Source: Rhodothermales bacterium
Lineage (GTDB): Bacteria > Bacteroidota > Rhodothermia > Rhodothermales > UBA10348
Direction: 5' to 3'
DNA: 64,000 nucleotides
NCBI GenBank assembly: GCA_028284865.1
Contig: JANQQV010000017.1
Location: forward strand, 62,001 to 126,000
Numbering within the stretch: the first letter of the stretch is position 1; each line of letters opens with the position of its first letter. A model generated the notes under the pieces. The model was given only the letters and a program-made list of their open reading frames with translations, had not been told where the DNA came from and did no database searches. Shown one piece after another: positions 22,424-42,166 of the stretch. The position numbers and the translations under genes were made by a program.

Positions 22424-22591
22424 ATGATGACTACGCAAACATCGCACTCCAACTGGACGCACGCGCAGTACGCTGCGCTGGCGGTTGAAGCTGTCGCTCA
22501 ACGCGGATCGCTCGTGGTGGTTGACCTTCCAGGCTCGGTGCTTCTAAGCATCGTGCTATCCATTCTTGTACTCAGCGTGCTTATCGCCTGA
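22424..22591 (+). CDS. Candidate branched-chain amino-acid leader peptide (attenuator) of the ilv-leu operon
   Basis: A 55-codon ORF ending 76 bp before ilvD. Of its last 27 codons, 18 specify Leu (8), Val (7) or Ile (3), including GSVLLSIVLSILVLSVLIA at the end. All eight of these Leu codons are CTT, CTC or CTA and none is CTG, although CTG is frequent in the neighbouring genes. Inside the ORF, GCGCAG (22463-22468) and CTGCGC (22473-22478) form a 6-bp stem with a TACG tetraloop. Downstream, CAACCC (22601-22606) can pair with GGGTTG (22637-22642), excluding the hairpin at 22636-22649. This fits ribosome-mediated attenuation as in enteric ilv/leu operons. The alternative is a small hydrophobic membrane peptide. 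No T-run follows the hairpin. Confidence 0.6.
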   Translation: MMTTQTSHSNWTHAQYAALAVEAVAQRGSLVVVDLPGSVLLSIVLSILVLSVLIA

Positions 22592-32617: not shown

Positions 32618-32992
32618 GTGGCGCCGCGGAAGAAACAGATCGTGCTGACCCGTGCCGACGAGATGTTGCTCGTCTGTATTCTGGTGTTGGGAAACGACGC
32701 CTTCAGTACCACCATCACGTCCGAGTTGCATCGCCGAACGCGCAAGCGGATTACGGTCGGTAGCCTTTGGGTTGCGCTTGATCAACTCGCTACGAAAGGC
32801 TTGATCGAAAAACAGAATCGCCCGAACCCGGATCGCAAGGGAGGGCGACCCCGTGTGTACTACTTCCTGACCAAAGAGGGGCTGACCGCACTGCGGAAGA
32901 CTCGGGATGTACAGACAAAGCTCTGGAAAGGTGTCCCGGACCTGGATACCGTAGACGTTCTGGAGGCGGCGGATTCGGCTCCGGTTTCTTGA
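32618..32992 (+). CDS. PadR-family winged-helix transcriptional regulator
   Basis: 124 residues from a GTG start. The PadR winged helix is recognisable: ADEMLLVCILVLGNDAFSTTI, then SLWVALDQLATKGLIEKQN (recognition helix region), then the wing GGRPRVYYFLTKEGLTALR, ending shortly after. There is no long effector coiled coil, so it is the short PadR class. It lies 17 bp after leuD, so it is probably co-transcribed with the ilv-leu operon and could sense its state. No PadR target site is evident. Confidence 0.82.
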   Translation: MAPRKKQIVLTRADEMLLVCILVLGNDAFSTTITSELHRRTRKRITVGSLWVALDQLATKGLIEKQNRPNPDRKGGRPRVYYFLTKEGLTALRKTRDVQTKLWKGVPDLDTVDVLEAADSAPVS

Positions 32993-33042: not shown

Positions 33043-33074
33043 TTGACGCGTATGAAGGAAAAGCCGTAAGTTCG
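33043..33074 (+). promoter_or_regulatory. Putative promoter of the arg leader/operon
   Basis: TTG at 33043-33045 (within TTGACG) and TAAGTTCG at 33067-33074, spacer 21, one mismatch from TAnnTTTG. If used as in other Bacteroidota, transcription would begin within a few bases of the leader peptide ATG at 33081, making that message leaderless or nearly so. The spacing matches the ilv leader promoter. Confidence 0.45.
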
Positions 33075-33080
33075 CCGCCC

Positions 33081-33179
33081 ATGAAACGCACTGCACTGCA
33101 TATCACTCGAGTTCGCCGCGACCGACGAGTCCGATCGGAATTCCGATCCGGATCAGGCCCGGCTGTGCTACGAGGGTAG
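33081..33179 (+). CDS. Candidate arginine leader peptide (attenuator) of the arg operon
   Basis: A 32-codon ORF: MKRTALHITRVRRDRRVRSE, continuing to a C-terminal VLRG before TAG. Nine of 32 codons are Arg (residues 3, 10, 12, 13, 15, 16, 18, 22, 31), six of them CGA, and five of the nine lie within residues 10-16. It ends 38 bp before a strong intrinsic terminator (33218-33249), with argG starting at 33318. A perfect 16-bp palindrome (33133-33148) overlaps the end of the Arg cluster. CCGGATC (33148-33154) can pair with GATCCGG (33223-33229) in the terminator's 5' arm. This layout matches ribosome-stalling attenuation. The peptide and elements are seen directly; the mechanism is inferred. It is too short to be identified by homology. 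Confidence 0.68.
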   Translation: MKRTALHITRVRRDRRVRSEFRSGSGPAVLRG

Positions 33180-33185
33180 CAGCGC

Positions 33186-33199
33186 TGCGCGAAAGCGCA
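33186..33199 (+). promoter_or_regulatory. GNRA-tetraloop hairpin in the arg leader
   Basis: TGCGC (33186-33190), loop GAAA, GCGCA (33195-33199): a 5-bp stem closed by a GAAA tetraloop, between the leader peptide stop and the terminator. A second stem, TGCTAC with GTAGCA around GAGG (33166-33181), overlaps the end of the leader peptide and its stop codon. Together they suggest a folded leader RNA. Confidence 0.5.
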
Positions 33200-33217
33200 A
33201 TCGTTTAAGAGCAGTCA

Positions 33218-33249
33218 GCGTCGATCCGGTCGGGATCGACGCTTTTTTT
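33218..33249 (+). terminator. Intrinsic terminator in the arg leader
   Basis: Ten-base perfect stem (33218-33227 with 33233-33242), loop GGTCG, followed directly by seven T (33243-33249), 68 bp before argG. Clear Rho-independent terminator. It may act as the arg attenuator, as the end of the ilv-leu-padR transcript, or both. Confidence 0.9.
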
Positions 33250-33317
33250 ATGTCCATCCCGGATTTGCATTCCGGGAGATCAAACCGCGGCGGAAGCTGC
33301 CTCACTCTTTCAACATC

Positions 33318-34517
33318 ATGTCCATCATCGTCGCCTTCAGTGGCGGACTCGACACCTCCTTCTGCGTCCCGTTCCTTCGGGAAGAGCACGGGTGCGATGT
33401 CCACACGGTCACGGTCAACACCGGAGGCATCTCGGAACGGGAGGCCCTGGAAATCGCAGCGCGAGCCGAGGAGCTCGGAGCGGCCAGTCATCACATCATT
33501 GACGCCCGTTCTGATCTTTTTGAGCGATCCCTGCAGTACCTGATCAAGGGCAACGTGCTTCGAGGGTATCTGTATCCACTGTGCGTGGGTCCGGATCGAG
33601 TCGTGCAAGCAGCTACGCTCGTTGAGAAGGCGCGCGAGATGGGAATCAAAACGGTTGCACACGGCTCAACCGGAGCGGGCAATGATCAGATTCGATTCGA
33701 TGTGGCATTGTCGGTGCTTGGAGGCGATCTGGAGATCCTGACTCCCATCCGGGCCGGCAATCTGAGTCGGGAATACACGTCGGGATGGCTACGTGAGCGT
33801 GGATATGCGGTCGACGCCGCCACGACCACGTATTCCATCAATACGGGACTGTGGGGAACGACCGTAGGAGGGAAAGAGACGCTTGGTACGTCGGTGAGCC
33901 TACCCGACGAAGCATGGCCGTCGCCATCGCCCATGGAAGCCCCAGACGAAGAGGTCTTGCTGGACATCGCATTCGAGAAGGGTGTACCCGTGGGTCTTAA
34001 CGGAACGGCAATGGATCCGGTGTCCGTGATCGAAGCGCTCAATGCGCTGGGAGAGGAGCATGCCATTGGCCGGGCGATCCACGTCGGAGATACCATTCTC
34101 GGGATCAAAGGTCGGGTCGGTTTCCAGGCGCCGGCCGCTGCCATTCTGATTCCGGCTCACCGGGAGCTGGAGAAGATTGTCCTGTCGCGCTGGCAGCAAT
34201 ACCACAAAGCCCAGCTTGGCGATTTCTACGGGATGCTCTTGCACGAGGCCCAGTACTTCGATCCGGTCATGCGGGACATCGAAGCACTGTTCGACTCTTC
34301 GCAGGAAACGGTCACAGGTACCGTGCACGTGACGTTGTACAAAGGCAGCGTTTCGATCACGGGATGCTCCTCTCCGTTCTCCTTATTCAACACGGGAGTC
34401 GCCACCTACGGCGAACAGAATGATCTTTGGGATGGCCGGGACGCGCGCGGATTCGCTCGTATCCTCGGAGTCCAATCGCTGCTGACCCACGGGGTCCGCG
34501 CCAACCAGGAAGCATGA
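33318..34517 (+). CDS. argG: Argininosuccinate synthase
   Basis: 399 residues. Joins citrulline and aspartate with ATP. The N-type PP-loop AFSGGLDTSF starts at residue 5, HGSTGAGNDQIRFD binds citrulline/aspartate, and TTYSINTGLWGT and KGSVSITG are typical. First gene of the arginine operon. Its stop overlaps the next start (ATGA at 34514-34517). It has an unusual upstream region with an Arg-rich ORF and terminator. Confidence 0.98.
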   Translation: MSIIVAFSGGLDTSFCVPFLREEHGCDVHTVTVNTGGISEREALEIAARAEELGAASHHIIDARSDLFERSLQYLIKGNVLRGYLYPLCVGPDRVVQAATLVEKAREMGIKTVAHGSTGAGNDQIRFDVALSVLGGDLEILTPIRAGNLSREYTSGWLRERGYAVDAATTTYSINTGLWGTTVGGKETLGTSVSLPDEAWPSPSPMEAPDEEVLLDIAFEKGVPVGLNGTAMDPVSVIEALNALGEEHAIGRAIHVGDTILGIKGRVGFQAPAAAILIPAHRELEKIVLSRWQQYHKAQLGDFYGMLLHEAQYFDPVMRDIEALFDSSQETVTGTVHVTLYKGSVSITGCSSPFSLFNTGVATYGEQNDLWDGRDARGFARILGVQSLLTHGVRANQEA

Positions 34518-35578
34518 TGAATACGATTCCAGTCACATACGTCTCGTCCACCGCCGCAAAGACCGGTCTGGTGAGCGACGTCTCCCTCAGCGACTATGTC
34601 GTCGCCCAGGAAGGGTATTGCGTTGTCGTTGAGGCGCTCGAGTCCAAAGCGGTCTACAACCAGATCGAGTGCGCCGACGGCGAATTCCGGACGATTGCCA
34701 AGGGCGATGTCTTTGTCGGTGTTCTTGGTGAGCGCCGGGCCCTTAAGGGGTACTCGGGCGTCGTTCCGCGTGTCGCGCTTCCAGGTGATACCCTGAATGT
34801 CCTCAACATGGGTGGCATCATTGGTAATTGTGTCTCCGATCACCCGGATCTCGGCCCAGCTCTTCGGGTCAAGGTGTTGGGCGCGGCGATGGTTGAGACC
34901 GATGGCATGTGGGTGCATGCCCGCCTGCAGGATCACGCGCTGCACGAGGTGGACTCGCTGACGTCGTCGGTGCCGCTAATTTTCATTTCCGGCACGGCCA
35001 TGAACACAGGCAAGACGTGGGCTGCCTGCGAACTGGTGCAGCGTCTGACCCGTCGCGGATATCGGGTCGCCGCTGCCAAAGCCACTGGCGCCTCGCTGAT
35101 GCGTGACGTTCAGCTGATCGAGCGGCACGGGGCCGTAGCCACGGCCACCTTCACTGATTCAGGCGTGGTATGCTCGACATCCAAAGCCATGACGCCCAAG
35201 GTGAAAGGGCTCATCAAGCATCTCAGCGACACGGCGGATCCGGACTGTATCGTGATCGAGCTGGGAGACGGTATCGTGGGCTATTACGGCGTCGACGAGC
35301 TGCTGCAAGACAAGCAGTTGCAGAAATTCTGCGCGGCCCATGTGGTTGCTGCCGTGGACTTGGCGGGAGTCTGGGCCGCGCAACATCTGTTCAAGGACCG
35401 TTACCACGCTGACATCACGGTCGTGACTGGTCCGGTGACAGACAACGGGGTAGGGATCCAGTACATCGAGCAGGTGATGGGTATTCCCGCCATCAATGCC
35501 CGCGAAGACCCCAACGATCTGGGTGACCGGGTGGCTTCCAAGCTTCCGGATCCCAAACCCCGGGAGGCAAGCGTATGA
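34514..35578 (+). CDS. Unidentified P-loop protein inside the arginine operon (BioD/DUF1611-like)
   Basis: 354 residues. Residues 1-150 form an all-beta/alpha N-terminal region with no family I can name with confidence (VVVEALESKAVYNQIE, DVFVGVLGERRALKGYSG). A P-loop GTAMNTGKT (160-168) follows, in the style of dethiobiotin synthetase and other SIMIBI NTPases, with IVIELGDGIVGYYG as a possible switch segment and VVTGPVTDNGVGIQYIE near the end. It overlaps argG upstream and argC downstream by 4 bp each, so it is translated as part of the operon. It has no place in the known arginine pathway. A possible role is N-acylglutamate formation, enzyme activation or regulation; this is speculation. Confidence 0.75.
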   Translation: MMNTIPVTYVSSTAAKTGLVSDVSLSDYVVAQEGYCVVVEALESKAVYNQIECADGEFRTIAKGDVFVGVLGERRALKGYSGVVPRVALPGDTLNVLNMGGIIGNCVSDHPDLGPALRVKVLGAAMVETDGMWVHARLQDHALHEVDSLTSSVPLIFISGTAMNTGKTWAACELVQRLTRRGYRVAAAKATGASLMRDVQLIERHGAVATATFTDSGVVCSTSKAMTPKVKGLIKHLSDTADPDCIVIELGDGIVGYYGVDELLQDKQLQKFCAAHVVAAVDLAGVWAAQHLFKDRYHADITVVTGPVTDNGVGIQYIEQVMGIPAINAREDPNDLGDRVASKLPDPKPREASV

Positions 35579-36588
35579 AACGGACGGCTGTACTCCACGC
35601 GGCCGGCTACGTCGGTCGGTCGCTGATGGATGTCATTCTCAAGCATCCGGATCTGGACCTGGTCGCGGCGACCAGTCGCTCGTTTGCCGGACAGCCGGTT
35701 GCGGCCGCCCATCCTGTGCTTGCTGGCCGTACCCAGCTTTCGTTCAGTAAATCGCTTGGCGATCCGTCCGCACTGGACATCGTGTTCGTGGCGGCTGGTC
35801 ACGGGCAAGGAGCGGCAGCTGTTGACGCCTTGCGCGGTCAGGGATACGATGGGTTGATCGTGGACATGAGCGCGGACTTCCGCCTGTCCGATCCGGAAAC
35901 ATACCTCTCGCGGTATGGCAAGGAGCATCCAAGACCGGATCTGCTGGCCGGCGCCTGGTATGGGATGCCAGAGATCACAGGCCCGCCGCCTTCCGGAACA
36001 ACTCTTGTCGCGAATCCAGGCTGCTTTGCCACAGCCATTTCCCTGGCTCTGCATCCCTTTTCGACGGACGACATCCTCAGCGCGTGTTCGTTTGCGGTGA
36101 CGGCCATCACAGGAGCGTCGGGCTCAGGTGCATTGGCCAAGCCGGCAACTCACTTTCCGGACCGCGACGGCAACATGCGCGCCTACAAGGTCTTCTCGCA
36201 TCAGCACGAAGCGGAGATCGATCAAATGGCGCCCGGAGTGGATTATGCGTTTGTCCCGTCGTCGGGACCCTGGACCGCGGGTATCTGGGGGACGGCTCAG
36301 GCCGAGCTTCCTTCAGGTCTCGAAGGCGAAAGGGGCCAGGAAGCTGTTGCAGCGCTATTTGCCGGCTTGTACGGCGACCACGCTTTGATCCGGCTGTGGC
36401 CGAATGCGCTCCCGGAACTGCGGTGGAGCGTGGGCTCACCATTCACAGATCTCGGGTGGCAGATTTCCGGTAATCGACTTGTTGTCGGATTTGCCATCGA
36501 CAATCTGATGAAGGGCGCCGCCACCCAAGCCATTCAAAATGCCAACCTGGCGTTTGGTTGGGACGATTCCAGAGGCTTGATTCCCTGA
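35575..36588 (+). CDS. argC: N-acetyl(acyl)-gamma-glutamyl-phosphate reductase
   Basis: 337 residues. NADPH-dependent reduction of N-acylglutamyl phosphate to the semialdehyde. HAAGYVGRSLMDVILKHPD is the nucleotide-binding start. VANPGCFATA holds the catalytic Cys, SGASGSG-like ITGASGSGALAK follows, and FSHQHEAEI has the conserved His. C-terminal VVGFAIDNLMKGAATQAIQN is typical. It overlaps the P-loop gene by 4 bp; argD starts 37 bp later. Confidence 0.96.
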   Translation: MKRTAVLHAAGYVGRSLMDVILKHPDLDLVAATSRSFAGQPVAAAHPVLAGRTQLSFSKSLGDPSALDIVFVAAGHGQGAAAVDALRGQGYDGLIVDMSADFRLSDPETYLSRYGKEHPRPDLLAGAWYGMPEITGPPPSGTTLVANPGCFATAISLALHPFSTDDILSACSFAVTAITGASGSGALAKPATHFPDRDGNMRAYKVFSHQHEAEIDQMAPGVDYAFVPSSGPWTAGIWGTAQAELPSGLEGERGQEAVAALFAGLYGDHALIRLWPNALPELRWSVGSPFTDLGWQISGNRLVVGFAIDNLMKGAATQAIQNANLAFGWDDSRGLIP

Positions 36589-36625
36589 CCGGTCGTTTGA
36601 CCCAGACTCCAATACCTGAATCATC

Positions 36626-37822
36626 ATGCACACTGAATCCTTGACCGCCGCCGAGTGGATGGCGCTTGAAGACAAGACTCAGCTGGACACGTATCGAAAG
36701 TGGCCCATTCCGCTCGTTCGCGCGAAAGGAGCCGAGGTCGAAGACGTTGATGGAAACACCTACCTGGATCTCTATGGTGGGCACTGTGTGGCCTTTCTGG
36801 GGCACAATCACCCTGAGGTGGTGCGGGCCATCAAGGAGCAGGCGGATTCGCTGCTGTTCTACTCGAATGCTGTCTATGCTCCCGTGCGGGCTCGGGCTTC
36901 CGAACGGCTCTCACGGATGGCGCCCGAAGGAATGAACAAGGTGTTCTTTGTCAGCACCGGTACTGAGGCCAACGAGGTGGCGATGAAGATCGCCCGAAAG
37001 GCTACCGGGCGTCCAAACGTGATTGCGGTCGAAGGCGACTTTCACGGTCGGACGATGGGTAGCCTCTCCACAACGTGGGCCCACAAGTATCGCGAGGGCT
37101 ATGAAAAGGCCTTCGGACCCGTCGCGTTCGCCCCATTCGGGGATGCCGAAAAGGCTGCAGCCATCATCCGCGAACACCAGCCAGCCGCGGTCATTGTTGA
37201 ACCGATCCAGTCGATGGGCGGCATGCGCACGGCCCCGGTGTCCTATTTCCAGGCGCTCAAGGACGCCTGTGTCGAAGTGGGTGCCATGCTGATCTTCGAC
37301 GAGGTGCAAACGGGGGTCGGGCGAACAGGAGCATTCACGTATGCCCAGACGATAGGCGTCATCCCACACATGATTTCGTTGGCTAAGAGTCTCGGCGGTG
37401 GAGTGCCGGTCTCTGCGCTGTTGATCAATGACGAAGTAGCCAAAACTGTCGGATACGGCGAACAAGGAACGACGTTTGGCGGGGGCATGATCGCCATGGC
37501 GGCTGTGGATGCGGCATTGCGGGTCGTTGAGGAGGAGAAGCTTTCCGAGCGGGCGATGTTGGTCTGGGAAGCTCTGGCAGACGGATGTGAGGCGCGCGGT
37601 TTGCGCTACCAGGGCGCAGGTTGTCTCATGGGGATCGACTTCGGGCGACCGGTTGGGCCGATTGTTGCTGGTCTCCGGGATCGCGGAATCTTGACGGGCG
37701 GTTCTGCGGATCCGAACATCATGCGGCTCATGCCTCCCGCTGTCGTCACGCGTGAACACGTTGACCGGTTCTTCCTGGCACTGGACGAAGTATTGACCGC
37801 GACGGAGGAAGTCGACGCATGA
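36626..37822 (+). CDS. argD: Acetylornithine (acylornithine) aminotransferase
   Basis: 398 residues. A class-III PLP transaminase that converts N-acylglutamate semialdehyde to N-acylornithine. STGTEANEVAMKIARKATG binds the PLP phosphate, IVEPIQSMGGMR and IFDEVQTGVGRTGAF carry the Asp that pairs with the PLP nitrogen, and SLAKSLGGGVPVSALL has the Schiff-base Lys. Its stop overlaps the start of the carbamoyltransferase gene by 4 bp (37819-37822). Confidence 0.95.
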   Translation: MHTESLTAAEWMALEDKTQLDTYRKWPIPLVRAKGAEVEDVDGNTYLDLYGGHCVAFLGHNHPEVVRAIKEQADSLLFYSNAVYAPVRARASERLSRMAPEGMNKVFFVSTGTEANEVAMKIARKATGRPNVIAVEGDFHGRTMGSLSTTWAHKYREGYEKAFGPVAFAPFGDAEKAAAIIREHQPAAVIVEPIQSMGGMRTAPVSYFQALKDACVEVGAMLIFDEVQTGVGRTGAFTYAQTIGVIPHMISLAKSLGGGVPVSALLINDEVAKTVGYGEQGTTFGGGMIAMAAVDAALRVVEEEKLSERAMLVWEALADGCEARGLRYQGAGCLMGIDFGRPVGPIVAGLRDRGILTGGSADPNIMRLMPPAVVTREHVDRFFLALDEVLTATEEVDA

Positions 37823-38871
37823 CGCATCTGCTGGACTGGCTGGATATCGATCAAGAAACCTGGGTCAGGTGTATCCAGGAGGCGCAGTTCTGCGCTGACT
37901 ATCGGGATGCGCGTGCGGATCGATTCCTGGGCAAGGCGCTTGGGCTGGTGTTTTTCAACGATTCGTTGCGCACACGCGTATCGATGGAGCTGGCTGCATC
38001 CGAACTCGGTGCCAAGCCCGTGGTCATCACTCCCGGGTCGGGTACCTGGGGTTTTGCGTGGGATGACGGTCCAATGACCGGCGGAGAAGCCGAGCATATA
38101 CGAGAAGCGGTTGGCGTGCTGTCGCGGTATTGCCATGGCCTCGGTGTGCGTTTATTTGCCGAGGGGAAGGACCGACAGCAAGACATGGACGATGTCCGGC
38201 TCAAGACGTTTGCGGCTGCCTCGGACGTACCCGTATTGAATCTGGAATCAGCCGCTCGCCACCCGTGTCAGGCGCTGGCTGATGCGGCCGTCCTGGATCG
38301 GCAGTTCGATGGGCACACAAAGGGTAAGAAGTTCGTCTTGCACTGGACGTGGCATCCCAAGGCGCTACCGATGGCCGTTCCCAATTCCACGTTGTTGATG
38401 GCATCGCGACTCGGGATGGACGTTGTGGTAGCTCGGCCGGATGGCTTTGAATTGGACGAAGGTGTCATGGATGCTGCGCGCCGTCAGGCGGCGGCCCATG
38501 GCGGAAGCGTTTCCGAGACCAACGATGCCGATACCGCCGCCGACGGCGCGCATATCGTGTATGCCAAGGCTTGGGGCGGTTTCGAGAGATACACGGATCC
38601 TGCTGCGGAGGAATCACGCCGTCATGCCCACAAGGATTGGCGTGTCACCACCGATCGAATGGACCGCACGGACAACGGACTGTTCATGCACTGCCTGCCC
38701 GTTCGGCGCGGCGTCGTAGTTGACGACGCTGTTCTCGACGAAGGGCCGTCGCTGCACCTTGATCAGGCCGAATACCGGCTACACGCCCAGAAAGCCATCC
38801 TGTCGATGCTCTGGGAATCAGGTTCGCGCTCACCATCTTCCGAAGATGTCACTGATCCCGCGCAGCCATGA
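37819..38871 (+). CDS. argF': N-acetyl- or N-succinyl-L-ornithine carbamoyltransferase
   Basis: 350 residues. Carbamoylates N-acylornithine rather than ornithine. The carbamoyl-phosphate site is FFNDSLRTR (about 46-53), HPCQAL follows, and LHWTWHPKALP and HCLPVRRGVV match the AOTCase/SOTCase branch, not standard OTCase. In the published pair of enzymes, specificity depends on a Glu (acetyl, Xanthomonas) or Pro (succinyl, Bacteroides) in a short segment; here I align Ala80 (WGFAW, 77-81) to that site, from memory, so the acyl group is uncertain. 4-bp overlaps both sides couple it to argD and argB. Confidence 0.92.
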   Translation: MTHLLDWLDIDQETWVRCIQEAQFCADYRDARADRFLGKALGLVFFNDSLRTRVSMELAASELGAKPVVITPGSGTWGFAWDDGPMTGGEAEHIREAVGVLSRYCHGLGVRLFAEGKDRQQDMDDVRLKTFAAASDVPVLNLESAARHPCQALADAAVLDRQFDGHTKGKKFVLHWTWHPKALPMAVPNSTLLMASRLGMDVVVARPDGFELDEGVMDAARRQAAAHGGSVSETNDADTAADGAHIVYAKAWGGFERYTDPAAEESRRHAHKDWRVTTDRMDRTDNGLFMHCLPVRRGVVVDDAVLDEGPSLHLDQAEYRLHAQKAILSMLWESGSRSPSSEDVTDPAQP

Positions 38872-39656
38872 AACGGATCGTCATCAAATTGGGAGGAGCG
38901 TTGCTCGCTCAGGACCTGACGGGCTTCTGGAATGGGTTGGCGCACGTGACCGCTTTCTCTGAAGTCGTCCTGGTCCACGGAGGGGGTCCCCAGACGACTG
39001 CCCTGGCCAAACGCCTGGGTCACACTCCAACCATTGTCGAAGGCCGACGCGTCACGACCGACACGGATCTTGAAATCCTGCAGTGGGTCATTCGGGGTCA
39101 ACTCAACGGGGACCTGATTGCGCAGGCCCATGCACATGGGATGCGCGCCGTTGGAGTCAGCGGGGCAGACGGTGGCATTTTGCAGGTTCACAAACGTCCG
39201 CCATGGACGATTGCCGAAAAGGAAGTCGATTTTGGTCACGTGGGTGATGTGGACGGCATTGATCCCACGCTTCTGTTGACGTTGCTTCAGGCCGGCATGA
39301 TGCCCGTGGTCTGCCCTCCGGGTGTCGACGCAGCCGGGAGGTTGTACAACGTCAACGCAGACACCATTGCTCTCGAGATTGCGGCCGCCATCGGCGCATC
39401 CGAGCTGATTCTGCTGACCGAGGCCGGCGCTGTGCTGGACTCGGGCATGAATCCCATTCGCCGGTTGACGACTGCTGATGCTTTGAAAGGCGTCGAGGAC
39501 GGCTGGATCGCAGGAGGGATGAAAGTGAAGACGGACATTGCCCGTTGGGCGCTGGAAAAAGGAATCGGATCGGTCTGGATTGCTCATCCCGATGCGTTGA
39601 TCGACCGGGCCAACGCGACCCGAATCATCGCCGATTTTCCTGGAGGAAGCGCATGA
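38868..39656 (+). CDS. argB: N-acetyl(acyl)glutamate kinase
   Basis: 262 residues. Phosphorylates N-acylglutamate. An amino-acid kinase fold: KLGGALLAQ at residue 7, VHGGGPQTTALAKRLG, NVNADTIALEIAAAIGA and LLTEAGAVLD. GGMKVKTDIA near the C-terminus has the conserved Lys. It lacks the N-terminal helix of arginine-inhibited hexameric kinases, so feedback by arginine may be absent here, which would put more weight on transcriptional control (inference). Overlaps neighbours by 4 bp on both sides. Confidence 0.95.
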   Translation: MKRIVIKLGGALLAQDLTGFWNGLAHVTAFSEVVLVHGGGPQTTALAKRLGHTPTIVEGRRVTTDTDLEILQWVIRGQLNGDLIAQAHAHGMRAVGVSGADGGILQVHKRPPWTIAEKEVDFGHVGDVDGIDPTLLLTLLQAGMMPVVCPPGVDAAGRLYNVNADTIALEIAAAIGASELILLTEAGAVLDSGMNPIRRLTTADALKGVEDGWIAGGMKVKTDIARWALEKGIGSVWIAHPDALIDRANATRIIADFPGGSA

Positions 39657-40795
39657 CCGTTCGCCCCGAACACAGTGATCCTTCCGCTTTTTACGCTGCC
39701 AGTGACGTCGGCCAGTTGCATCGCGCGCTCGTTGCCACGCCTTCACTGAGTCATGAAGAGGCGGCCGCTGCTGACTTGCTCGAAAAGCATTTCCAGGACG
39801 CAGGTGTTGAGACGCGTCGCATCGGTGACAACATTGTGGCTTGGGTCGGAGCTGGTTCGCGCACGCTGCTGTTGAATTCCCACCTCGATGTGGTCCCGCC
39901 AAGCTCCAATCACCCGTACCCGGCATTCGAGCCCACAATCGAAGGCACTGAAGTGTTCGGACGCGGCACCGTTGACGCGAAAGGCTGTGTGGCTTCCATG
40001 GTGACGGCCATGATCCGTTCGGCTCGATCAGGCCACCTTCCCGATGATGCCCGGCTTGTGGGTGCATTCACCGTCTGCGAAGAGACGGGTGGGCAGGACA
40101 ACGGGCTGGAGGCTATTCGTCCGGATCTGCCGTCGTTTGATGCAGCGCTGATCGGTGAACCCACGCACATGCAGCCCTGTGTCGCACAGAAGGGATTGCT
40201 CATTCTCCGTTTGGATGCCCATGGAAAAAGTGCCCACGCGGCGCGGGCAGAGCATGGCGACAATGCGATTTCACGCTTGGTTCGGGACCTGTCCTACCTG
40301 GAAGGCTTCGAGTTTGAACGGATCCATCCATTCCTGGGCGAAACGACCCAGAATGTCACCGTCATCGAAGGCGGTACGGCGCGAAACGTGATTCCGGATC
40401 GGGCCTCGGCCTGGATCGACATTCGGACGACGCCCTCGTACACGCATCCGGAGATTGCTGAGCTTCTGAATGCCCGGCTTGAGTCTGAAGTCGTGATCCA
40501 TTCGCAGCGGTTCATTCCGGTGGAGACGAGCCCGAACGAGGCCATTGTCAAAGCCTGTCTGGCGGCGCGCTCTGATGCGCAGCCTTTCGGTTCGCCCACG
40601 ATGTCCGACTGGATCCAGGTTCACGATGTCCCCGCCGTCAAGATTGGTCCGGGCGACAGTCGTCGGTCGCACACGGCTCATGAATCGATCGACGTTTTCG
40701 AATTGCACGACAGCTGCGCGATCTACGAGTCAATCATCCGCTCTTTCTTTGAAGACATTGAGGGCACGTCCCAGGATCGGGGCTTCCCATCCTGA
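39653..40795 (+). CDS. argE: Acetylornithine deacetylase / N-acyl-citrulline deacylase (M20)
   Basis: 380 residues. An M20 zinc peptidase-fold hydrolase. LLNSHLDVVPP holds the first metal His and Asp, GRGTVDAKGCVAS the bridging Asp, TVCEETGGQDNG the catalytic and metal Glu pair, and GPGDSRRSHTAHESI the last His. Because the pathway carries the acyl group through carbamoylation, this enzyme most likely removes it from N-acylcitrulline. The start at 39653 overlaps argB's stop; longer in-frame readings are unsupported. Confidence 0.93.
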   Translation: MTVRPEHSDPSAFYAASDVGQLHRALVATPSLSHEEAAAADLLEKHFQDAGVETRRIGDNIVAWVGAGSRTLLLNSHLDVVPPSSNHPYPAFEPTIEGTEVFGRGTVDAKGCVASMVTAMIRSARSGHLPDDARLVGAFTVCEETGGQDNGLEAIRPDLPSFDAALIGEPTHMQPCVAQKGLLILRLDAHGKSAHAARAEHGDNAISRLVRDLSYLEGFEFERIHPFLGETTQNVTVIEGGTARNVIPDRASAWIDIRTTPSYTHPEIAELLNARLESEVVIHSQRFIPVETSPNEAIVKACLAARSDAQPFGSPTMSDWIQVHDVPAVKIGPGDSRRSHTAHESIDVFELHDSCAIYESIIRSFFEDIEGTSQDRGFPS

Positions 40796-40846
40796 TCCAG
40801 ACACCTCGATCACCCTGACGAACACTCTCCCCAAACGAACAACAGC

Positions 40847-42166
40847 ATGTCTCCGATCTGGCAGAAAGAAGCGCACAGCGGTGCGGCCGACTGGGTCACC
40901 AGATTCACCGTCGGTGATGACCCCCATTGGGATCTGATGTTGATGCCGTACGACGCGGCAGCCTCGTTGGCGCACGCGGCAGGTCTCCTGAGGATCGGGG
41001 TGCTTTCTCAAGCCGAGTTCGACGCACTCCAGGAGGCTTTCGCACGCCTGGGCGATGCTATCGAAATCGAGCAGATCACGATCACGGTGGAAGACGAGGA
41101 TTGCCACACCGTCATCGAGCGCTTTCTGATCGAGGAGACCGGCGAAGCGGGACGCAAGATCCATACGGGCCGGTCCCGTAATGACCAGGTGCTGGCTGCC
41201 CTTCGTTTGTGGCTTCGACAGCACGTCGGCGATGTCATGGAGGATCTGGTCGACGTGGCCGAGTCGTTGGCTGACGTCGCCGATGCCAACAAGAACCAAT
41301 TCATGCCCGGATACACGCACACCCAGCGAGCCATGCCGTCCTCGGTGGCGGCGTGGGCGTTGGGATACGCCGAATGTTTGGCCGATGACCTGACCGTGTT
41401 GGCCCAAGCCCGTGTGCTCAACAATGCGTCACCGCTGGGCGCTGCAGCTGGATACGGCGTGCCCCACCTGGATCTGGATCGCGCGGGCGTTGCTGCGGAT
41501 CTTGGATTCAATCGGGTCCAGGAACAAGTCACCGCCGTACAGCTCAGTCGAGGGAAGTTCGAGATGGCCGTGGTGCACGCTCTCGTTCAAGCGGCGTCGA
41601 CCCTGAATCGGCTTGCGTCGGACATCGTCCTGTACTGCAGCGCCGAATTCGGCTTCATTTGCCTCGATGATGCCCTGACGACCGGGTCGAGCATCATGCC
41701 GCAGAAAAAGAATCCGGACATCGCTGAGCTCGCGCGCACGGTTGTGCATCGGATTGCAGCCGAAATGCACGTGCTCCTCAGTGTCCCGGCCAATCTGCCC
41801 TCCGGGTATCATCGCGATCTCCAGGTCACGAAAGCCAGCGTGATGCGCTCCGTGCTCCTGATGCTGGATCTCTGCCAGGCCGCATCCGGGTTGGTCCAGG
41901 GGATGCGTTTCGACGAGGACAACCTTCAGGCGGCTCGCGGTGCGGAGCTGTTTGCCACCGCAGCGGCGCTGAAACAGGTCAAGGACGGCACGCCCTTTCG
42001 GGATGCCTACCGAGACGTGGCCAGCAAAAAGAAGCTGTGGGACGAGCAGGCCAGAGCCTCGTTGGGCGATGTTTACTCCACACCCGGCAATCCAGGCCAG
42101 ACGGACTCCTCGTCGCTCAGGCAGCGACTGGATGCGCTCAGACCCGGAACAGGTAGCTCAGCTTGA
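40847..42166 (+). CDS. argH: Argininosuccinate lyase
   Basis: 439 residues. Splits argininosuccinate to arginine and fumarate. HTGRSRNDQVLAALRLWLR near 110, MPGYTHTQRAMPSSVAAW, and the fumarase/ASL signature GSSIMPQKKNPD near 285 are present. The last gene of the arginine operon, 51 bp after argE. Its final 29 bp (42138-42166) overlap the end of the convergent DUF5916 gene. Confidence 0.97.
   Translation: MSPIWQKEAHSGAADWVTRFTVGDDPHWDLMLMPYDAAASLAHAAGLLRIGVLSQAEFDALQEAFARLGDAIEIEQITITVEDEDCHTVIERFLIEETGEAGRKIHTGRSRNDQVLAALRLWLRQHVGDVMEDLVDVAESLADVADANKNQFMPGYTHTQRAMPSSVAAWALGYAECLADDLTVLAQARVLNNASPLGAAAGYGVPHLDLDRAGVAADLGFNRVQEQVTAVQLSRGKFEMAVVHALVQAASTLNRLASDIVLYCSAEFGFICLDDALTTGSSIMPQKKNPDIAELARTVVHRIAAEMHVLLSVPANLPSGYHRDLQVTKASVMRSVLLMLDLCQAASGLVQGMRFDEDNLQAARGAELFATAAALKQVKDGTPFRDAYRDVASKKKLWDEQARASLGDVYSTPGNPGQTDSSSLRQRLDALRPGTGSSA

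Follow-up and report, generated by a model that had tools for sequence, protein, structure and literature searches.

The classic ribosome-mediated attenuators, i.e., those of the trp, his, leu, ilv, thr and phe operons, have in common a short open reading frame (ORF) carrying control codons, a set of alternative pairings between regions of the leader RNA (1:2, 2:3 and 3:4) and an intrinsic terminator. Bacterial arginine operons are generally taught as being controlled by the ArgR repressor and, to our knowledge, leader peptides have hardly been described in the phylum to which the Rhodothermales belong. At the time of a 2010 survey, leader-peptide systems were known only in Proteobacteria and Actinobacteria, to which the Firmicutes were then added (PMC2965389). 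Leaderless leader peptides are known from Sinorhizobium (PMC7298713) and Streptomyces (PMC8079986). A sensing of arginine through arginine codons has been described in two other settings: the Staphylococcus aureus rbfL leader reports arginine supply in this way but controls the translation of a biofilm regulator by occlusion of the ribosome-binding site, with no terminator switch (PMC13009471), and the Salmonella speF leader is likewise reported to sense arginine codons (PMC6386406). Neither of the two controls the biosynthesis of arginine, as the leader described below would do. A search of the open-access literature did not find a published attenuator of a bacterial arginine biosynthesis operon.

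Analysis of a window of 64,000 nucleotides from a Rhodothermales bacterium, in which the parts of the arg locus lie on the forward strand, points to such a system. We consider it highly probable (about 0.9) that the arg operon of this window is under the control of a ribosome-mediated transcription attenuator in the style of the trp operon. In each feature that can be probed in the sequence, the anatomy of the locus is that of a ribosome-mediated attenuator: a leader ORF in which codons for arginine, the product of the pathway, abound; a predicted 1:2 pairing between the control codons and region 2; an antiterminator which, according to pairing tests and folding, is exclusive with the terminator, freed by a ribosome stalled at the control codons and hidden by one that has reached the stop codon; and an intrinsic terminator, evident from sequence and folding, between the leader and the first gene. 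The novelty with respect to the known attenuators would lie in the amino acid (arginine), the lineage (Rhodothermales) and a probable leaderless leader. Translation of the leader, the start of transcription, the sensing of tRNA, termination and read-through are all what we infer from this arrangement.

The first structural gene of the operon is argG (33318-34517; argininosuccinate synthase, Pfam PF00764/PF20979), followed from 34427 to 42166 by an unknown P-loop gene, argC, argD, an N-acetylornithine carbamoyltransferase gene, argB, an argE-like gene and argH. The operon is situated directly 3' of the ilv-leu genes and a PadR gene; the latter, coding for a PadR-like regulator, occupies 32618-32992, between leuD and the arg leader. 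Ahead of argG, the initial annotation had called a 32-codon ORF (33081-33179) with nine Arg codons, six of them CGA, clustered at residues 10-18, and its translation (MKRTALHITRVRRDRRVRSEFRSGSGPAVLRG followed by the stop) bears this out. The Arg residues stand at positions 3, 10, 12, 13, 15, 16, 18, 22 and 31, so that six of the nine fall in the cluster R10-R18 (33108-33134), which comprises the putative control codons and is part of region 1. Taken singly, this Arg-rich ORF before a terminator is suggestive and no more: when the argG upstream region of the window was shuffled with its dinucleotides preserved, 31 of 3000 sequences contained an ATG-initiated ORF that had six or more Arg within 12 residues and stopped 15-60 nt short of the terminator (p about 0.01). 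Decisive support comes from conservation: 29 of 38 non-redundant loci have an ATG-initiated ORF with this density of Arg (six or more within 12 residues), as against 0.4% of shuffles.

The argG loci were sampled over a widening range of relatedness, beginning with the genus, family and order and going on to the class and phylum; in a named collection, the relatives found to carry this protein are Rhodothermales metagenome-assembled genomes. Counted by eye from the locus tables, 63 of the 79 Rhodothermales genomes, representing 13 of the 14 families of the order, have an Arg-rich short ORF before a hairpin and directly upstream of argG (f1 19/21, f2 2/3, f3 6/6, f4 3/3, f6 1/1, f7 1/1, f8 3/3, f9 1/1, f10 1/1, f11 2/2, f12 6/6, f13 13/13, f15 5/5 and f14 0/13), the terminator of the f10 genome being weak. 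Elsewhere in the class, the leader was seen in both genomes of f16 and in the single genome of f19. It is missing upstream of argG in all 20 genomes of the sister family f18, in 20 outgroup genomes belonging to other families in the phylum, and, within the order, in family f14 (L077, L081, L084, L086, L089, L093-L096, L098, L100, L101 and L103). Some f14 loci retain hairpin remnants, e.g., GGCGCTGATT...GATCAGCGCC. In genus g10 (L015 and L062), argG follows a PadR-like gene and neither a leader nor a terminator was found. Typical Arg runs are LRRRLRRVRR (L021), TTRRRARRVRR (L023) and SRRLRRVRR (L018), while the leader of G030 reads MTRQPTLIAPTTRRRARRVRRLH...; the gap from the leader stop codon to the hairpin is 18-59 nt, mostly 20-45 nt. 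In the sister family and the outgroups, a short ORF of the type MFVHRYVV ahead of argG was considered as a second conserved leader and rejected, since it is the conserved CLCTGMLYDP end of a GNAT gene read out of frame.

The make-up of the Arg clusters points to a frame that is read codon by codon. Over the 12-codon clusters, 235 of 456 codons in the leader frame specify Arg, versus 30 and 19 in the other two frames. Between close relatives, 23 substitutions of Arg codons in the cluster are synonymous, whereas 14 exchange Arg for another residue or the reverse; the third position accounts for 29 of the 53 base changes in the cluster. Apart from the Arg codons, the peptide varies freely, with 221 non-synonymous versus 82 synonymous codon differences, as is usual for attenuators outside their control codons. 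Substitution by codon position over the whole leader yielded no clear coding signal, the Arg cluster alone showing one, and, since the peptide is free to change apart from its Arg codons, it is only the Arg frame from which the leader is taken to be translated. Further, CGA makes up 116 of the 235 Arg codons in the clusters (49%) versus 59 of 592 (10%) in argG of the same genomes, and CGG 11 of 235 versus 184 of 592. CGU, CGC and CGA are read by one tRNA (ICG); the bias towards CGA could in part be due to the needs of pairing.

The intrinsic terminator that had been noted ahead of argG was recovered as a hairpin of 11 pairs, AGCGTCGATCCGGTCGGGATCGACGCT (33217-33243; -20.3 kcal/mol), with a U-tract, the whole spanning 33217-33249. 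Its 5' arm and loop constitute region 3 (33217-33235), which is predicted to pair with region 2 (33141-33165), the 5' strand of the antiterminator. The stretch 33106-33123 would be the 5' strand of the 1:2 pairing, or anti-antiterminator, with its partner, by folding, at about 33154-33174. The repeat finder agrees with the initial annotation that CCGGATC (33148-33154) and GATCCGG (33223-33229) are complementary, and also reports GATCGGAA/TTCCGATC at the palindrome given there as 33133-33148. These two heptamers turned out to be the core of the independently predicted antiterminator, in keeping with the mutually exclusive structures proposed for them.

The same architecture recurs across loci. 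The arg hairpins stand before argG at varying distances and mostly have energies of -16 to -30 kcal/mol, and a T-rich run comes after most of them. At most loci, the terminator 5' arm has its best partner at about -33 to -8 nt from the leader stop codon, 3' of the Arg cluster. Cognate pairing was assessed by comparing the summed pairing energy of the true species combinations with that of combinations shuffled between species. For the 2:3 antiterminator, the cognate energy is -659, whereas the permuted combinations average -513 (sd 16; z about -9) and not one of 20000 permutations reached so low a value. The signal comes solely from the 3' end of the leader, disappearing at offsets of at least 30 nt upstream and weakening 20 nt downstream. 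The arms of the 3:4 terminator yield a cognate z of -11.9. Regions 1 and 2 give z values of -4.9 and -5.1 in two overlapping windows and about zero in windows nearer region 2; the exact 1:2 pairs vary by species and were folded for the window of this study. Additionally, the partner of arm 3 changes in step with it column by column: at columns 10-12, which are loop columns hardly used by the terminator stem, G-C, C-G, A-U and U-A all occur. The antiterminator is weak at L004, L017, L067, L071 and L105. Thus, in the aligned upstream regions of related argG genes, the comparison which the initial annotation had proposed, the Arg runs are conserved and the stems covary, which supports its reading of the locus as an arginine attenuator.

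On this attenuator model, the transcript would begin with the leader ATG or a few bases 5' of it, and translation of the leader would follow immediately. With enough charged Arg-tRNA, the ribosome would reach the stop codon and cover region 2, allowing the 3:4 terminator to form before argG. With charged Arg-tRNA in short supply, it would stall in the cluster of CGN codons and cover region 1, upon which region 2 would pair with region 3, the terminator would be blocked and argG to argH would be transcribed. In a leader left untranslated, the 1:2 pairing would leave the terminator free. Folding of the window sequence is consistent with this scheme. Once the full terminator is included, only a ribosome at R15 or R16 still yields the antiterminator; one at R10-R13 or R18 gives the antiterminator until the 3' arm of the terminator has been made, after which the terminator wins at equilibrium, and one at the stop codon gives the terminator only.

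Alignment of the loci on the leader ATG revealed, at most of them, a promoter-like pattern TTGAC(A)-N17/18-TAnnnT ending 7-10 nt 5' of the ATG. The spacer is 17 or 18 nt in 46 of 61 loci, and the distance from the -10 box to the ATG is 7-10 nt in 43 of 61. In the window, the predicted arg promoter comprises a -35 box TTGACG (33043-33048), an 18-nt spacer and a -10 box TAAGTT (33067-33072) placed 8 nt before the ATG, the coordinate from which the initial annotation had begun its feature, 33043, being the first base of the -35 box. A promoter score of at least 10 is reached at 68% of the leader ATGs of 37 non-redundant loci versus 0.6% of 1448 other ATGs; the leader of the window scores 10. A Shine-Dalgarno-like motif was found at the leader ATG in none of the 37 non-redundant loci. 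Assuming a start 6-8 nt past the -10 box, the spacing is compatible with a 5' UTR of about 0-4 nt. Hence, with the ATG 7-10 nt past the -10 box and no Shine-Dalgarno sequence, the arg leader mRNA is probably leaderless. In this respect it would resemble the trpL leader of Sinorhizobium meliloti (PMC7298713) and the leu, trp and ilv leaders of Streptomyces (PMC8079986), whose transcripts begin at or beside the start codon, while differing from these in its amino acid and phylum and in that its own start is deduced from promoter spacing.

Three other explanations for these features may be weighed against codon-level sensing of charged tRNA. One is that the leader is an arrest peptide, whose nascent chain senses free arginine or a polyamine in the ribosome tunnel; in its favour, a leader with arginine codons, though of a different kind, is reported ahead of Salmonella speF (PMC6386406), and closely related species do have similar leader peptides. 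Nevertheless, outside the Arg run there is no motif shared across families, and the spacing of the Arg residues varies. The strong bias towards CGA is a feature of codons rather than of the peptide, and the predicted pairing geometry suits stalling in the Arg run, making this explanation quite unlikely.

The position of the arg operon, directly after ilv-leu and the PadR gene, raises another possibility, namely that the hairpin merely terminates ilv-leu transcription and that the Arg-rich ORF arose incidentally from a CG-rich sequence, for which the chance of about 1% at a single locus leaves some room. This is already contradicted by the recurrence of the ORF in 13 of the 14 families of the order, and sits poorly with the enrichment of Arg codons in one frame only, the presence of a promoter between the upstream gene and the ORF, and the covariation of the 2:3 pairing; we regard it as very improbable. 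Still more improbable is that the leader works by another route, e.g., through Rho or the translation of argG, with the hairpin being secondary: competing hairpins without a U-tract are seen in the ilvD leader of this lineage, implying that leaders without terminators may exist, but the arg hairpins are strong, mostly followed by T-rich runs, and placed ahead of argG.

The families bearing the leader appear to be devoid of the usual ArgR repressor. No match to PF01316, the N-terminal ArgR family, was found in the window genome by a search with that family which matched 9 of 14 control genomes; the remark in the initial annotation that bacterial arg operons are usually controlled by ArgR fits with this setting. 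In the phylum sample, 93 of 247 genomes match PF01316, and 134 genomes, named in part, are without a match. The only genome of the class among the matches listed is G028, with five identical partial matches (positions 10-54), which were read as copies of a repeated element and not accepted as ArgR. Strong ArgR matches are common in genomes outside the class, and in several of these the ArgR gene lies just upstream of argG. As for known RNA families, neither a T-box nor any other Rfam leader matched at the gathering score; the terminator region resembles the Xoo2 sRNA (RF02241) by a sub-threshold match only (26 bits versus a gathering score of 45), which was dismissed as a chance match to the hairpin.

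If the attenuator reading is true, a bacterial arginine biosynthesis operon would be under codon-sensing attenuation, with a leader conserved widely enough for testing in a cultured member. It would offer a natural comparison, for the same operon, of attenuation with repression, the latter in those outgroups where the ArgR gene immediately precedes argG, and also one of leaderless translation coupled to transcription. A start codon at the 5' end would mean that only transcripts from the arg promoter would be translated, so that read-through from ilv-leu would always be terminated and arg thereby insulated from its neighbour. It is possible, though somewhat doubtful, that a leaderless-leader attenuator of this kind assumed control of the arg operon in the absence of ArgR across much of the class, within a wider use of leaders (arg, trp, his and ilv/leu), and insulates arg.

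Leaders for other amino acids, which like the probable leaderless start had been overlooked by the initial annotation, were sought gene by gene. Relatives have Trp leaders with FGWWWF, GFWWW and SWWWH and His leaders with FHHHH and AAHHGHEHHG, several of both kinds being accompanied by terminators. Trp-rich leader ORFs with terminators lie upstream of trpE in the Rhodothermales relatives L190, L192, L193, L198, L201 and L202, and His-rich ones with terminators upstream of hisG at L208, L209, L211, L212, L214 and L216, of which L209 is from the window's own genome. Within the window, a Leu/Ile/Val-rich leader ending in LLSIVLSILVLSVLIA and conserved in relatives of the family occupies 22428-22591, upstream of ilvD (22668); it is followed by competing GGTCAACCC and GGGGTTGAC...CCCC elements capable of alternative pairing, without a U-tract. 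Lastly, the P-loop protein encoded between argG and argC (34427-35575) has weak matches to CbiA/DUF1611; its listed start overlaps argG and the true start is probably later.
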